From positions 2,172,501 to 2,236,500 of the forward strand of contig OX344755.2 of assembly GCA_947034885.2 (NCBI GenBank): DNA of 64,000 nt, in the 5' to 3' direction. This document shows positions 8,942 to 43,819 of this stretch, piece by piece. Source of the DNA: Thuidium tamariscinum. Lineage: Eukaryota; Streptophyta; Bryopsida; Hypnales; Thuidiaceae. Position numbers and translations under genes: made by a program. The notes below the pieces were generated by a model. The model was not told where the DNA came from and ran no database searches. It was given only the letters and a program-made list of their open reading frames with translations. The first letter of the stretch is position 1, and every line of letters starts with the position of its first letter.

Positions 8942-11455
8942 TCATAGCTTTGAGTAGTGGGGCTTCCGCTTCTGTACCCGTGCTTGCAAAGCCTCCTGCA
9001 AATCCTCAGAGGCAAGCATGGCAGCGTTCCACAGCCCCACATACTCAAGACCCTGCGCCACCGTCATGTCGCGGCTCTTGATCAGCACAGTCTTCGTTCC
9101 CGTGACGGCCAGAGGCGACTTCGCTGCAATCTGGGATGCCAGCTTGTGTACGTGGTCATCGAGCTCCGCTTGGGACTGGAGAACCCCCTGCACCAGGCCC
9201 AGTGCCTTCGCTTCCGACCCGCTGAATCGTCTCCCTGTCAATGCCAGCTCCATTGCGTTTCCATGACCCACGAGCTTTGGCAATCGTTGTAGCGTCCCCA
9301 GGTCCGCTGTAATGGCCACGTCCACCTCCCTCACGCTAAACACCGCATCCTGTCCAATAACGAGTGTCAGAATCGCAGAGCTCCATTTCTCTACGAGTCT
9401 TTTATTGCTTGGGAGAAGGATCTCACTTCAATTTCCTATTCGGTAACACATGTAGAGAAAGCGGAGCAGGTAATAGCCCCCAAATGAGGTCATTCGTGAG
9501 GCACGCAAACGTCTACAATACCAATACTAAAATAGGAAAGAAAGAATCAAGCGGTAGTCATGGGCTTCTTCAGAGTCCTCTAGTTAGCAAATTCAACAAA
9601 CTGACAAAAACCTAATTCACTGAGCATTCGAGAATGAAGAATGAATGCATGCTCTCTTCAAAGTCCTCTCAATTGCGCTTCCTATAAACTAGAAAATTAG
9701 AGAACATTGGAGACAAGAACATGAGACTAAAGAAGTTCACATGGAGAATGCACTACTGCTAGCTACCTAACACACCATATTTCGAGCCAAGAGACTATGA
9801 ATGAAGTGCCACAAAACATGGATGAAGTTAGGATTCAACAAGCTCACCCTGAAATCGAGTACAGTGACTTCCCCGTAACACTAGATCAAATCGAGGCAGA
9901 ATACCTGAGTGCAGTAACGAAGGTCACAGGCCGTGACCATGTCGATGCCGCCTCCGATACAAGCCCCCTGGATGGCGGCGATCACGGGCTTTCGACATTC
10001 TTCGAAGGCGTTGAATGCATCCTGCATCGCCTTCACATCTCTTCGAAACTTCTCCTTTTGTCGACCCAAGCACGTCGGCGTTTTATTGCTTCCTGAAAGT
10101 CATTGCATTTGTACCGAATAAGGAACCAATCACTTGCCTGAATCTTCCGCTTGGAGATCAAGAGAAGCGCAAGAAATTGCCACAGAAAGATCAAAAGATT
10201 CACTCAATTGAGCTCAATGTGGACTCTCTAAGCTCAACATGGAAATTATGCAAGGATACAAGCTTCGTAAGTTAGATTCATCATATGTTACTCAAGAGAA
10301 CCTTCGATTATGATTACGCATCTTTCTTTCAACGACAATGTACATTGATCCCTATTTATCGCTACACGTTAATTAGTAAACTGCGACAGAATACATCAAA
10401 ACATTCAGTAAATTGACCAGTATACTGACTCTCTATGGTCAGCATCGAAATTATGTGATTATATAAGCTCCGTGAGTCAGATTCATCATATGCTACATGA
10501 GAATCATTTATGATTACTGATCTTTCTTTGAATGACACTATACATTATCCTCTATACATTCCGATCCCGATCCCTATACATTAATTTGAAAATCACGACA
10601 ACATACATCAAAATGTTCACAAAATTGAGCTCTATAATGACTTCCGTCGTCAGCATGGAAATTGCGCAACTACAGATGCTATAAATGTCAACCATTGCTT
10701 ATAACTACTCCTCTTGCTTTGAGTAACATTATTCCCTGTACATCCCTGGTTCATGTTACCTGAACCTCCTGCTTCGACTGAAGCGAATCACGTGAGAAAG
10801 AAACACAATAAATTGAAATATCCACTAAATTGACCTATACGTCGACTCTTGAGGTTCGGCATGAAAATTATGCGACGAAACAAGCTCCATAACTTAGATT
10901 CATCTTACGCTACATTTTTTAAGTTTGTCTCGCTACATTAGAACTAATGATTACAATTACTGATCGTTCTTTGAGTGACAATTATAAATTGTTTGTCTAT
11001 ACATCCATTTTGGAAACTTGCAAGAAATTTAAGCATGGACGTATGCAACTACACAAGCTCCATAGCTCAGATTCATCATATTCTATACATAACAACTGTT
11101 GATTATGTTAACTCGTCTTTCTTACTTCCAATATTTCGGAACTGAAAGGAGAAACAATTACAACAAAGGGATTAAAAAAACAAGAAAGCAACAAAGCAAC
11201 AAATCGAAGCCTACCAAACTCTTTCTCGACATGCGAGAGGTCGATCCCCGCGCAGAAATGAGGTCCGGCAGCGTTCACGATGATGACGCGTACGGCGGGG
11301 TTCAGATCCAGAGCCTGAACTGCAGCCGGAAGTTCCTCGAACAGCGAGGAGTCCAACGCATTGAACTTGGACGGGCGATTGAGCGTGAGCGTCGCTACCC
11401 CTGCACCATCAGGCCCTTGCACTTGCACACTCTTCCACTCTCTCCCACTCTCCAT
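8942..11455 (-). CDS. DCI1: Peroxisomal delta(3,5)-delta(2,4)-dienoyl-CoA isomerase
   Basis: Three minus-strand exons give a 278-residue protein: 11455-11215, 10092-9905 and 9349-8942, all GT-AG with consistent phases. It belongs to the enoyl-CoA hydratase/isomerase (crotonase) superfamily: LTLNRPSKFNALD and the oxyanion-hole segment AGPHFCAGIDL in exon 1, GACIGGGIDMVTACDLR in exon 2, and EVDVAITADLGTLQRLPK in exon 3. Asp131, Glu151 and Asp159 have the same 20- and 8-residue spacing as Asp176, Glu196 and Asp204 of rat dienoyl-CoA isomerase, which separates it from ordinary hydratases. The last three residues are SKL, a canonical PTS1 peroxisome signal. It isomerises 3,5-dienoyl-CoA to 2,4-dienoyl-CoA during beta-oxidation of unsaturated fatty acids with odd-numbered double bonds. 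Length and signal match the plant DCI1 family. Confidence 0.93.
10195..11095. repeat. About five decayed tandem units of ~208 bp in the isomerase intron 1
   Basis: A diverged unit recurs at about 10201, 10411, 10619, 10826 and 11033, a period of roughly 205-210 bases. Each unit carries an AAATTGAGCT/AAATTGACC start, a GCATGGAAATTATGC-like core, then AAGCTCC.TA.CTCAGATTCATCATA and a later GATTACTGATCTTTCTTTGA segment. The last unit is truncated. All lie inside intron 1 of the dienoyl-CoA isomerase gene. No coding potential is seen. Confidence 0.7.
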
Positions 11456-36809: not shown

Positions 36810-39800
36810 ATGGGAATCATCGAAGGAGGCAGCGCCAGCGGGCTGCTGCCGAACGATCGCGTTTTTGCTGTGAATTTTCCGGGGTACCCTATTTCGCTTG
36901 AGAGAACCACGCAGGCCCTTGGAGGAGAGGATCGCATCGCAGAGGTATGGTCTTTTGTGAATTTTTTAGTACGTTAGATGAGAACGTTTTTTCTATGTTC
37001 AGCTTTTAATTCTTTTTGGACCAACACATGTATTTTCGCAATATGATCAATTAATTGGCCATTTGTAAACCATGAATCCTTGATCCTTTAGGGTTTAATC
37101 GTCGCCTCGTTCATTCATTCATTCATTCATTCATTCATTCATTCATTCTTGTGTTATTGACCAATGCTCACAGACCCGGTCGGCAGAGGGCAACTACTTG
37201 GAGCTGAAATTTCGACCTGAGGATCCTTGCGCACACGCTGCATTTGGTGAATTGTCTCAGTCGTCTGATCTTTTGTTACGTATCAGACGAAAACGGTACA
37301 AGAGCCTTCTCCCGAGCGAAGAAGCTGTGACAGGTCCCAATTCAGGCATCGGTGATGTTCCTTCCGAGGACAATGCAGATGATTTCGAGACGAGTGCAGA
37401 CATTGTTGCAAGAGTAGAGCACTCGTACAATTTCGACGGTTAGTCTTTTCTTTTTCTTTGCCCTTCAGTATATGAGTTAGAGGATACTCTTATCGTCAAT
37501 TTTAGCGTGCAGGAGTGTGCTTTCATTGGGTTTAGGGTTTAGAGCTCACTGGAAAATTGCTTTGGTTACGAGAGACGAACTGTCTTAACATCAAATTTTT
37601 TTATCACTTTGTATGAATTTCTTATGCAATCTCAAGGTGGGAGTTTGTAGACTTCAACAGCTGATAGTAGACAACCTCAGGTCAAACATAATATCAGTTG
37701 CTTAAGACATCTAGGGAACTGATGCCCACAGTACTTTCTAATTGAAAGCCAACCAAATGTATGTATAGTGATTTGCTGTTAGTAACAGGGGTCTGTATTT
37801 CAGACGGAATTGGGTCCCTGTCAGTGTAATGTTCTCTACCTTAATCCTGCAAGGACCAAGGATTCGTGGTTTTCAAGTCATCATATTGGTTGATCATATT
37901 CGATAGACTTTTAATTCAATGGGAATTTTTTATATTACTAGATTGAGTGAAGAATACTGCATGTGTCTGTTAAAAATTACAATCAACGGAACGAATAAAA
38001 ATCTTTATATGAACTCCTCAAAAGTCTTTAGACCAAATATGGATTCTTGGTCCTTAGGGTTAAAGCTCACCTTGAAACCTGACAAACATACATCGTGAAA
38101 CATATATATTTCCTTTTCGCATTATCGTCAAGAATTACAATCATTATCTAGCCAAACCTCATGTTCCAGTTGTTGGGAGTGTCTACAAGTCTTTGTTTCG
38201 ATTTTAGGAGGGAGTTAGCAAGTGAATATAGTACGGTTCAACCTTCAGCTGGAATTCATTCTGATCTAATCCAATAGCAACCTATCATTGCCTTGCATGC
38301 TGGAGGTGCAATCTGTGGCTTCTCTCATCGAGTATATGGAAGCTCCTGTAGCGATTTGCTCTAATAAAGGTCTAAAATTGCGTTGTGAAGGTATGGCGGA
38401 TTACCAGTACGTGTTATCTGTGCATGCGGATGTTGCCAGACGTCGTCAGAAGCGGCAGCGTGAGAAGCAAGGCTTGGGTATATTTTTGCGTCATCGCCTA
38501 GAACGTTGCAAAGCCTTGTGCTGATTTTTATTTTTGTTTTGAATTTAGTTTCTCGTTCTTAATGTTTTGATTCTTCTCTACATCATTTATTCTTATGTTA
38601 GAATTGCAATGTCCTCATATTCGGCATCAATAACTAGTGTGATACACGTTTGCTTCATTTCATATGAGCACATGGGCCTAGACACACATCATCACAGAAA
38701 ATACGTGGAACATACAGACGCCCTTGTGTCTTCTTATATCTAGTGCATTACCAAGTAAGGCATATCCATCACTTTTAACAGCGTGAGCATCTTCATTAAG
38801 CATTGAAACTTTTTGTATGCAGGAAACTTGATGGACGTGGAACAGGACGAACTTATGATGCTCGTACCACCTCTCTTCTCCATCAAGGACATGGCTGAGG
38901 AGACTGTGTACTTATTTTGACCCTTTGAATTTGCAATAATAATTTTGACCAGCTTCCTACATTGAGAGAAAGTTTTTTTGTTTTTCTTAATGTGGTTGAC
39001 TTCATTTTGTCAATCTACTGTTTTGGTTTAGTTTTATTTAAGTTGAGGCTTTGCGTTTCGGTTCTCTTGAAGGTTGCGCCCGTCGGATTTTGTTAGCAAA
39101 AGGACAAAAAGAAAGCATGGGAGTGACACGCCGGTAAAATCGCAGGTATGATGCAGGTCTTACTTTGAGTCTTGACTAGCAAAGTTAATATCCTGCAGAA
39201 CTGTCAAATTGGTGAATGTTACAGTCTATGATTTACTTTCTGCAAACGGTGATCTCTCTCCCTTAGGTAATGGCACCAGTTCTTTCTTTTCTGCTTCTCT
39301 CTTGGACTGACGAAATTTAATATTTCCATAAGTAACTTGCAAAGAGGACCAGCAGGAACTAGTTTTGGGATACGTAGGTTGATGGGTCGAAAGTTATACT
39401 CAACCATACGTAAGGGGTTCTCTATTCTTTACAGGCCTGGCATGATGTCAAAGTAAGGTATTTTCTAATAAATTGAAGGCATTAAATATGCAGGCAAATT
39501 TGATGCCGTGCTTTGCAGTGGACTTCAAGATTCCAGATATCCTCACAGTTGGCTGACATTTTTGTATTTAAGTGATGCAAGAATCATTTGAGCATGTCCA
39601 CATTTTCGTGTATACTAGTCGAAAAACTTCCCTCCCAGAAAACTTTGCTTCATTAATTTGTAAGCCCTGCCAATTCTAATGCGGCTAGGTTTTCCTATTA
39701 CACTATTGCGGGTGGGTTTCCTACTAGATTTCGTTCGACTGTTGCTGTTTCTTAGAGAGTCATAATTCATTGTTGTACAAATGCTAGGTCGTCCTGATGG

Positions 39801-42800
39801 TGACTATGGAAGAGTGTCTCTGCCTTCCGATCGATATTATTTGCTTTCTGTAAGCTTAGATGAAGCGAGAAGACGGCACCTTGGGGTATAGATGGTACTT
39901 GTACTGATTCAGTTTTTAGTTTTTAGTTTTGTTTATGGAGTTCACATCTGTGACTGTGTCAATATTGGAGCTGTCAACTAGTGGAAAACGCCCTCGAGAT
40001 GTATTCCAAAAGCCTTGCTGCGTCAAAGCCTGTCAATTGTAACGTGGCTAGGTTTTCTACTAATATATGAGAATTAAGGAGTTAGCTAAATATAGCTTTG
40101 TTAATGCTAATTCTCCACTCTGATCCTGTGTGTGATCCATATTTCTTACAATATCTTTTATTCCCTTTTATTCCCTTAACTGTATCACACAAGTCCCAGC
40201 ACCACTGAAGTGGGAGGATCAGCTTGTAAGAAACTCTATGGAGTACAACCTGACGGCAGCTACAGTCCGGCTTTTTGAGGAGCGACCTATATGGGCAAAG
40301 CCCACCCTCCTTGATCGTCTGGCTGAATTTGGGGTAGTTATTGCGGAAGCTCATGTTAAGAGGTGTGTCATCTGATGCTTTTTTTTTCCTGAATGACACC
40401 CTTTGTTTGTGGATTATGATGCTGGATAATTAGTGAGTTTAACACTTTGTTCTGACGTTGTGGCTCTAGTGCAGGCTGCTCTTCAGGACAGGATATTACT
40501 TTGGCTACGGGCCGTTTCGAACTCTGTGGATTAGGAATGGATACGACCCTCGAAGAGATTCAGAATCTCGTTTGTATGTTATGAACCCTTTTACACCCGT
40601 TTTCAACTTTTCATCGCTTAACCTCTGATGGCCAAAATGGCCGCTTCTATATCTAAAAATATAGGAGTTGAAAAATTCATTTTGGATTGCAACAAAATGT
40701 ATCAAAAGAAATCTTGAAGAAACTGTATTCTACATGTCTGAACGGTAGAATAAAATGTTTAGAATATTCATATGATCAACCATTTGCTTTCAAAGTGTAT
40801 TTTGTAGTTTTAGATTGGGCACTTAAGGGTCAACTACTTTATTTTGTGTCTCCCGGTTCTTTCGCCAACCAGCAGCGTTATAATACGATGCCCTTGATAG
40901 AAATCTAAGACTCGTTCAGATCCTGATAAGATATTTCCTGCTCTTTAATTGTGATTTGGTTTTGTGAGGGTCTATTAGTGGTTACTAAGATAGTGTCTTT
41001 CCGTGGTCGCTTTGGATGCGCAGTTCTGTTTGATGATTTGTACTGGCGTTTATTTATTATTCACGATCCTATGTTTTTCAGGTACCAGATGATGGATTTT
41101 CGAATTCCTCGAACTTTGAAGGATGGTACCAGTGGCCCTGAGAGGCCAAGTGCTAAAGACAGGTTCGTGATTAAGAATATTTAGCTCGAACGATTTCAAT
41201 GGAGTGAAATGGGATTGTCTTTCAATGGTCGACCTGCTAAATTGCCCTCTCGTCATTGCCTTAACTGATTTCCAAAAATAACCGAGAATCATTTAATCCT
41301 GTTTTCGCATGTGAAGTATTGTAACAGTTTTGAGTGGATTTGTGCAGTGGACCTGCATGGAGGGATATATGCTCCTTTAAAGTAGCACCTGTCAAAAAAT
41401 TCTCTTTTCTACAACTTTTTGATCTAGAAGATGACTATATTCAAGAACAGATACGAAAGCCTCCAGAGAGACCATCTTGTAGTGTAAGCCTCTCCCACAT
41501 TTCCTTGCATGTATGCTCTTATACTATCTGTCAATGGAACAGTGGGACACTGGCTAATACTCATCAAGCTTTGTGAATGGTTCCTCAGGAGTACACAGGG
41601 TGGTTTTCTCAGAGTACATTGAACCAACTACGAGACCATATACGAGCTCGCTTCATGGGACTTATGCCTGATGAACCTGCACCAGAATTGCAAGGCCTCC
41701 CGCGCACCTCATGGGCACCATCGTTGAAGACTGTCACCTGGAAAGACAACGAGGATGCACCTAATACTGATGTAGGCCCTCTTTATGACCAAGTTCCTGC
41801 GTCAGCCACTCATGCTGTTGAAACAGGTATTGGACAGAATCTACTACTACACTACCATCCAATTCCTGGTAGTTTTGTTTCTATCTTCGGAAACCACAAT
41901 TGCAACATTGTAAGCGTTGAGCATATATGCTATTATTACACAGTTCGATTTTAATTTTACTTGTTAGCAAACCGAGGAGGATTCCAACGTACCGAACAAT
42001 GCATTATTCGGATACTATATGTAAAAGTTATAAGGGGTTCAAAGTTTCATTTATTGATGATCTAGAACCGACACGAGCCGTGACGTTGAGGTGGTGCACT
42101 TTCTCAAAATTACGTACTCAAAATATGAACTCGTTGTTCAAGATTTTGGAGGGTCACATTTAGGAAGTTTGTGCAATTGTGTGACTAGTTACCTTACATG
42201 CTCAAGCTAAACATGGAATATCCACTTTGGAAACATATTTTTACATATTCTTTCTATTGTTACATTTTGTTACCTTCCTTGAAGCTTCCTCCAAAAGCAT
42301 TTACAACTCTTATAGATATGGAAGCTGTTGCGTTTGGCCATTTGGGCACTTGGGATTACGTGCGAGATCTTCCGTTGTGAGCATGAAATTGGTCGTTCAA
42401 CATTATTCGTGCGATTTTATTTCGTCCAGATTGTGGATAACTCTTGGGGTTGTACTTTTTATTTACAGATCATACTTTGTGCAAATGATGCAGGAATTGG
42501 GATACAGACCCCTTCTGAACTTACTTTCACGCCTTTGCCCGATACTCTCTCTCTGGAGGAGCCAGAACCAGAGCCTGAACCTGAGATTGAAAATGACGTT
42601 GAGATCCCTGCAGCAGAAGCCGATTTAGAGGCAGATGCTGCTGTTGCTGCAGAGATACAAGCTGAGGAGGAAGAAGAGGAAGAGTCTGATGACGATGAGG
42701 TTTGCTGGTCATTTCACTCGGCATCTATTTTTCAAGGCCTCAATATATATATAGTTTTGTTTTTTGTTTTTTGTTTTTTTGTTTTTTTGAAGTCCTTTTG

Positions 42801-43819
42801 TCAAGATATAGTCCATCAAAGTCATGAAAGATTATGTTTCCCTAAGATTTGAATCGTATAATTATTTATTGATTCTTTGTTTTGTAGGAAGAGGAGGAAG
42901 AAGAGGAGGAAGAGGAGGAAGAGGAAGACATGGAGATACCACCACAGTCTCAGGTACATTTCCCAGCAGAAATTGCTTATTTTTGGACTTGGGATCGATT
43001 GAAGTTAGGGGACCCATTTACAGAGGGGGTCTCTTTTCCTTGGCTTGAAGAGTCTTCCATTTACAATGCAGTGTCATCTAAACACTTGTAAGAACTGAGA
43101 TACTTCTAGGTTGAATCTATCAAAGATGCTTTGATGAGATACATTGTAGATGCAATACTCTTGGTTTAATGGTAATCTGAGCTGGTCATTGTAACCCTAC
43201 TGCTTCGTACTTCATGTTTAAAACTTATTTATACTACATCCAAATAATACATTTTTTAGTGTGTTGGAACGGTCTCAAAAATGTGCACAAAAGATTGCCA
43301 TATAAATATTGGAAACCACTCAAAACAGCTGAATACCATGTAAATTGGGTCCCTACCGTAGTGTACTTTCCACACCTGATTCTTCAAATTTTGTGGGTCA
43401 CTGAGCGACTGGAGATTGCATGTGCAGGATGGAGACCTGGAAGCTGGTAAGCTACGCCAGAGCTGTGCTGTATGTGTGTCATTCTTGCTATTGTAATACT
43501 CATAATTAACAGATATTTGTCTTGTAATCTAGACCCCAAGGCATCAGGTTTTGTTTTTGGTTGATAATTGTGCGCAAACATCTGTCGCCTCCTTTTCGTA
43601 ATTTTACCTTTTGTTACTTCTTCTTCAGCTTCATTTTCTGACTTGCTTGGACTTGCATTATGAACAGATGAGATGCCTGATGGTTTTCTCAAAGAGCTTC
43701 TCAAGAAATTTCCCTTCGGCCAAGGCTATGATGGAGAAGCCGAAGGGCTAGATGGAGCTGATGAGGATGATGCTGAGTATGCCATTTATGAGCAAGCTGA
43801 TGACGAGGACGACGATTAG
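36810..43819 (+). CDS. GTF3C5: General transcription factor IIIC subunit 5 (TFIIIC tau95/Sfc1 family)
   Basis: Fifteen exons join in phase to a 618-residue protein: 36810-36944, 37174-37438, 38391-38477, 38823-38907, 39073-39145, 39494-39536, 40191-40362, 40475-40573, 41082-41162, 41348-41483, 41589-41826, 42494-42699, 42888-42953, 43428-43446 and 43668-43819. The N-terminal half has the family's barrel region (FPGYPISLERTTQALGG, LLLRIRRKRYKSL, FDGMADYQYV, LVPPLFSIKDM, LRPSDF). The middle carries the Tau95 DNA-binding domain (LKWEDQLV, EERPIWAKPTLLDRL, YYFGYGPFRTLWIRNGYDPR, YQMMDFRIP, about residues 235-390). The C-terminus is strongly acidic, with a glutamate run in exons 12-13 and a DEDDD end. 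This subunit helps TFIIIC bind the A box of tRNA genes. Thirteen introns are GT-AG; intron 6 fits a U12 AT-AC intron. Exon 14 has only 19 bases. Confidence 0.9.
37114..37148. repeat. ATTC microsatellite in TFIIIC5 intron 1
   Basis: A run of about eight perfect ATTC units lies in intron 1. A similar run occurs at about 54700-54740. Confidence 0.9.
37595..37870. repeat. Dispersed repeat in TFIIIC5 intron 2
   Basis: This is the diverged counterpart of the intronic sequence at 2120-2440, sharing GAATTTCTTATGCAATCTC, GATTTGCTGTTAGTAACAGG and a GGGTCCCTGTC stretch in the same order. Confidence 0.5.
39537..40190 (+). other. Probable U12-type AT-AC intron of the TFIIIC5 gene
   Basis: The intron starts with ATATCCTC immediately after AAG ATT CCA G (U12 AT-AC donor consensus ATATCCTT) and ends in AC at 40190. 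A branch-site match TTCCCTTAAC at 40171-40180 (consensus TTCCTTAAC) puts the branch adenosine 11 bases before the acceptor, the spacing expected of U12 introns. This is the only junction found that keeps the frame between VDFKIP and VPAPLKWEDQL; no GT-AG pair restores it. Confidence 0.78.

Follow-up and report, generated by a model that had tools for sequence, protein, structure and literature searches.

In the stretch of Thuidium tamariscinum DNA analysed here (64,000 nucleotides, C7:2172501-2236500; hereafter the window), intron 6 of the gene for TFIIIC subunit 5 (TFIIIC5) is very probably an AT-AC intron of the minor (U12-type) spliceosomal class, judging from its sequence. The intron combines a U12-type 5′ splice site, a U12-type branch site near its end and a terminal AC that restores the protein. 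The class of AT-AC U12 introns is already known, and TFIIIC5 intron 6 adds one more example to it; a core RNA polymerase III factor thereby joins the genes interrupted by such an intron. The relevant features, in positions of the window (a slash in a sequence marks an exon boundary), are as follows.

36810..43819, + strand: TFIIIC subunit 5 (Tau95/GTF3C5) gene, 15 coding exons, 618 amino acids plus stop, identified with Pfam and human 8clk_E
39494..39536, + strand: exon 6, 43 nt, ending in phase 1 with CCAG/
39537..40190, + strand: intron 6, AT-AC and very probably U12-type, 654 nt, 61.3% A+T
39537..39544, + strand: U12-type 5′ splice site ATATCCTC, 7/8 match to ATATCCTT, with C at +8
40171..40180, + strand: U12-type branch site TTCCCTTAAC, branch A at 40179, one C more than TTCCTTAAC
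40189..40190, + strand: terminal AC, 11 nt past the branch A
40191..40362, + strand: exon 7, 172 nt, starting AAGTCCCAG (AAGTCCC); the junction-spanning codon is GAA

An earlier note on this DNA had assigned the gene to TFIIIC subunit 5, and protein families and structures agree. Fifteen open + strand exons, once joined, gave a complete reading frame of 618 residues followed by a stop, in which the Pfam families Tau95_N (residues 20-140, E 8.3e-21) and Tau95, the TFIIIC helix-turn-helix (HTH) domain (residues 175-327, E 8.7e-25), follow each other in the order that marks a TFIIIC5 protein. The closest PDB structure to the first 494 residues was human GTF3C5 (8clk_E, E 1.2e-30). A profile search of the genome (363,211,507 bases in 19 contigs) matched the Tau95 family at one place, exon 8 of this gene, and therefore no TFIIIC5 paralogue was seen. 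Of the gene's 14 introns, 13 have GT-AG termini, the sole exception being intron 6.

The branch A of U12-type introns usually lies about 10-13 nt from the intron end. The published consensus of the U12-type 5′ splice site is ATATCCTT at +1 to +8 (PMC2831892; this and all other papers are cited from excerpts), and that of the branch site is TTCCTTRAY (PMC5932401). Read as TCCCTTAAC (40172-40180), the branch site of intron 6 matches TTCCTTAAC at 8/9 positions. We estimated the chance expectation by shuffling 39527-40220 at the dinucleotide level, 20000 times in all: a donor matching at least 7/8 within the first 27 positions arose in 298 shuffles, a branch site matching at least 8/9 near the end with an AC 10-13 nt on arose in 39, and the two conditions were jointly satisfied in none. 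Multiplying these rates gives 2.9e-5 with the reading frame not yet required, and requiring the frame would lower this joint chance further. Taken alone, the motifs are not enriched in the window, which contains ATATCCT 12 times (9.9 expected), RTATCCTY 10 times (8.1 expected) and TCCTTRAC with one mismatch 79 times (100 expected). The phase of the intron, phase 1, agrees with the bias against phase 0 reported for U12 introns (PMC7367187).

Components of the minor spliceosome are encoded in the same genome. Searches for small nuclear RNAs (snRNAs) scored the best 40-50 of tens of thousands of candidates each, so the copy numbers are lower bounds. Above the Rfam gathering scores we found U6atac at no fewer than three places (at least two full genes at 78.6 bits and a shortened one at 50.3 bits), U11 at at least one place (57.9 bits) and U12 at at least two places (92.9 and 92.4 bits). 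The U11 RNA keeps the canonical 5′ end AAAAGGG (UAAAAGGG), and both U12 genes keep the canonical branch-pairing GUAAGGA (GAGUAAGGA). The idea that a U12 snRNA with an extra G might compensate for the additional branch-site C was rejected, both U12 genes reading GAGUAAGGA. The family of CENATAC, a factor for AT-AC introns (PF14968), matched twice on C3 (3.0e-24 and 5.0e-19), the frame of the second match being interrupted by one stop.

Elsewhere in this genome, similar introns can be read from the sequence. The ten plants compared in PMC5932401 have an AT-AC U12 intron as intron 4 of CBP20, and QQT1 and E2FB are U12-intron genes in Arabidopsis (PMC5853960). For the counterparts here, the exact ends of the introns were picked by eye from frame and signals.

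C5:3774000-3778800, - strand: CBP20 locus, with an AT-AC intron that begins ATATCCTC

The CBP20 intron reads CCAG/ATATCCTCTCC ... TTCCCTTAAT ... TTGCAC/GG and its removal restores DYDPGRGGYGK, close to the human counterpart DYDAGRGGYGK. It shares with TFIIIC5 intron 6 the first eight bases (ATATCCTC), the branch site with an extra C (TTCCCTTAA), phase 1 and the preceding CCAG, whereas the gene is another one and the branch A lies 16 nt from the end by eye, compared with 11 nt in TFIIIC5. An extra branch-site C has been reported in CBP20 of P. patens and in 4/124 U12 introns of that moss, and it was proposed by the authors as a possible reason for inefficient splicing (PMC5932401). Rare in P. 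patens, this C is present here in both TFIIIC5 and CBP20. A gene of the GPN family (PF03029, 2.1e-9), which we take to be QQT1 from its C-terminal motif, has an intron ATATCCTTTCT ... TGCCTTAAC ... TTCCAC with an AC end, and an E2F gene present in two copies has an intron GTATCCTTTTT ... TTCCTTGAC ... CTGCAG with an AG end; the exon bearing the latter is presumably part of the E2F gene that lies 2.4 kb upstream, as plant E2F motifs suggest. The two E2F genes (C2:13020000-13029500 and C2:13058000-13067500) are oppositely oriented, with about 40 kb between them, and carry the same GT-AG intron of U12 type. Candidate U12 motif pairs were also seen in other E2F and GPN loci (e.g. L037, L052).

Compared with the U12-type AT-AC introns of Arabidopsis, intron 6 is alike in termini, 5′ splice site, branch site and phase and differs in having C instead of T at +8 and an extra C in the branch site. 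The AT-AC share of Arabidopsis U12 introns has been put at 26% (PMC7367187) and at 4.8% (Marquez 2012, cited in PMC5932401). Among the literature matches listed (none for At3g49410), nothing links TFIIIC5 to a U12 intron, U12 databases and supplements lying outside that search, and the main texts of PMC2831892, PMC7367187 and PMC2426677 nowhere contain 'IIIC'. The earlier note had described a U12-type AT-AC intron at these coordinates and with these letters, its AC 11 bases past the branch A, and the signals, the minor snRNAs, CENATAC and the similar introns of the same genome all bear this out.

The spliced product across 39536/40191 reads VDFKIPEVPAPLKWED. In the alignment with human GTF3C5 (8clk_E), a comparison at the protein level, the protein aligns across the junction, FKIPEVPA lying over human FEDEEVPK with EVP identical. 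The claim that only the AT-AC pair restores the frame was wrong in detail: with the AT donor kept, two AG ends are also in frame, as are 28 GT-AG or GC-AG pairs (13 and 15, respectively), mostly weak.

40193..40199, + strand: two other AG ends that keep the frame, with their final bases at 40193 and 40199, against which protein homology does not speak firmly

The AT-AC pair is the best supported among the choices that keep the frame, and several results weigh against it. For ten spliced versions, the 39548/40279 pair not among them, Tau95 scores did not set the AC end (92.7 bits) apart from the AT-AG ends at 40193 and 40199 (93.2 and 92.9 bits), an AT-AA version shifted by 2 nt (92.6 bits) or a GC-AG version (92.4 bits); a second GC-AG version had 91.5 bits. 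In a crude BLOSUM comparison with the human segment (top 40 of 97 choices), AT-AC scored 150; three in-frame choices scored higher (153, 153 and 151) and two were tied with it, the three higher scores arising because FAVDFKIP is deleted, which goes unpenalised with free end gaps. The predicted pairing of intron 6 with U11 (-4.1) and U12 (-6.2) is weaker than that of the consensus (-6.6 and -10.6, respectively), and therefore removal of the intron may be slow. No U4atac match was found among the best 49 of 36855 candidates, a search that was silent in control genomes too and so gives no evidence of absence. Finally, the segment given as AAAGGA in the Rfam consensus of U6atac is AGCCGA in both full genes, so that neither carries the canonical form.

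Among the alternatives, the one that survives best keeps the U12-type intron and its AT donor and places the end at the AG at 40193 (or 40199), alone or as an alternative to the AC, which we consider unlikely. AT-AG minor introns are known (PMC8280824), both AG ends are in frame, and their Tau95 scores are slightly above that of the AC end. These ends, however, lose the E of the EVP common with human GTF3C5, score 142 each compared with 150 against the human segment, and lie 14 and 20 nt past the branch A compared with 11 nt, so that the AC is encountered first. The use of protein homology alone to settle the 3′ end was dropped because the Pfam scores are flat across AC and AG ends, and therefore the AC end is favoured only by the human EVP and the distance from the branch A.

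It is very improbable that intron 6 is instead a conventional GT-AG or GC-AG intron whose ends lie elsewhere. With a splice-site matrix built from the 13 GT-AG introns of the gene, the weakest of which scores 5.5, 27 of the 28 in-frame pairs fall below every one of them. The exception, 39548/40279, scores 5.9, just over the weakest real intron, but it removes the conserved stretch before ERPIW, so that DILT replaces the interval from KIP to ERPIW. The GC-AG choice 39510/40193 is level with AT-AC in Tau95 score (92.4 bits), whereas the four GT-AG versions compared reached 86.7-88.5 bits; moreover, an intron of this kind would leave the U12 signals unexplained.

Still less probable is an extra exon between 39536 and 40191, and hence two introns, the candidate open stretch being at about 39813-39885. 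We counted 530 in-frame two-intron GT-AG models (447 under narrower limits), the scoring being confined to models of that type. In the best of them, the weaker of the two introns scores 4.0, under all 13 real introns, and such an exon would drop FAVDFKIP and add residues at a place without an insertion in the human alignment. Taken together, the GT-AG, GC-AG and extra-exon models were set aside as weaker than the gene's own 13 introns, with the one exception in 28. An open reading frame (ORF) at 39766-39888 resembles exon 3 over 17 residues, 10 of them identical; it has neither DNA similarity to exon 3 nor a Pfam or PDB match. That a rare AT-AC intron is removed here by the major spliceosome, although major-class AT-AC introns exist (PMC8280824), is scarcely credible in a genome with minor snRNAs and similar introns.

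If intron 6 is, as we prefer, a U12-type AT-AC intron, its 5′ splice site would base-pair with U11 and its branch site TTCCCTTAAC with U12, after which U6atac, aided by CENATAC, would take over the 5′ splice site. Joining 39536 to 40191 would then give ...VDFKIPEVPAPLKWED... and a complete Tau95 HTH domain. Retention of the intron would have another outcome.

39554..39556, + strand: TGA in frame on intron retention, 235-residue product

The retention product stops after 235 residues, inside the Tau95 HTH domain. To say as a fact that TFIIIC5 expression depends on the minor spliceosome would be too strong, but such dependence can be fairly inferred because of this early stop; the actual use of the splice sites, the class of spliceosome and the effect on TFIIIC supply are likewise what the sequence would predict. 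TFIIIC supply in this plant would thus be tied to the activity of the minor spliceosome and of CENATAC, the loss of which in human cells increases retention or the use of alternative major sites in 92% of A-type minor introns (PMC8280824). An annotation that allows GT-AG introns only would misplace the junction within the DNA-binding domain.

The unusual U6atac may bear on how the 5′ splice site is recognised.

C1:10670793-10670921: U6atac gene 1, AGCCGA segment
C4:28929365-28929493: U6atac gene 2, AGCCGA segment

The AAAGGA segment of U6atac is the one that pairs with the 5′ splice site, and in human cells the intron's C5 and C6 are paired with G14 and G15 of U6atac. In both full genes the segment reads GAGCCGAGAG compared with AAAGGAGAG in the consensus, and the wider stretch reads UUGAGCCGAGAGAAGG compared with AUGAAAGGAGAGAAGG. 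The two genes are identical over 129/129 nt, whereas an ungapped comparison finds 74% likeness in the 100 nt of 5′ flank and near-random sequence in the further flanks; each gene has TATAAA at position -30 and ends in a T run, features that would be those of live genes. Predicted duplexes with three of the introns and the consensus 5′ splice site range from -0.9 to -3.5 kcal/mol, compared with -4.7 to -7.6 kcal/mol for the consensus U6atac. Despite the altered U6atac, the minor introns here keep ATATCCTY or GTATCCTT at the 5′ splice site. The sequence GAGANAAGGTTAGCA occurs at three places in the genome, namely the two U6atac genes and an AT-rich site that by eye is not U6atac-like onward. A canonical U6atac was not found: GAAAGGAGARAAGG occurs at 37 places, of which the 16 that were read gave no Rfam match, and none of the other 21 continues as TTAGCA.

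A changed mode of 5′ splice site recognition by this plant's minor spliceosome is conceivable, if doubtful. Through GAG(CC)GA with the two C bulged, U6atac could form pairs with UCCUC or UCCUU, an arrangement that would favour a C at +8, and U11 would then carry more of the 5′ splice site recognition. C stands at +8 in two of four genes (TFIIIC5 and CBP20) and T in E2F and QQT1, which weakened the idea of a general match between a +8 C and this U6atac. The folding program did not pick the full bulged helix: for TFIIIC5 it paired only UGAG with +6 to +9 (four pairs), and for the other three targets it chose another register. Among the listed papers naming both U6atac and Physcomitrella, judged by title or start of abstract, none concerns the U6atac pairing segment. 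The AGCCGA oddity, seen here in gene sequences, is a lead and not a result; if real, it would outweigh the intron, because changed recognition of the minor 5′ splice site would become testable.

Some observations concern the interior of intron 6 and the rest of the window. The ORF at 39766-39888 (+ strand) is protein-like over 41 codons, and its resemblance to exon 3 was matched by 1 of 5000 shuffles; it may be a degenerate copy of exon 3 (10/17 residues identical, no DNA similarity). No further copy of intron 6 was found in the window or the retrieved genome loci. Within the intron, a 29-nt direct repeat (86%) at 39666-39694 and 40029-40057, 363 nt apart, perhaps reflects an old local duplication. 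A scan of the whole window with Rfam gave no match, and elsewhere in it, at 8942-9343 (- strand), lies part of an enoyl-CoA hydratase/isomerase gene (PF00378, 1.2e-17).

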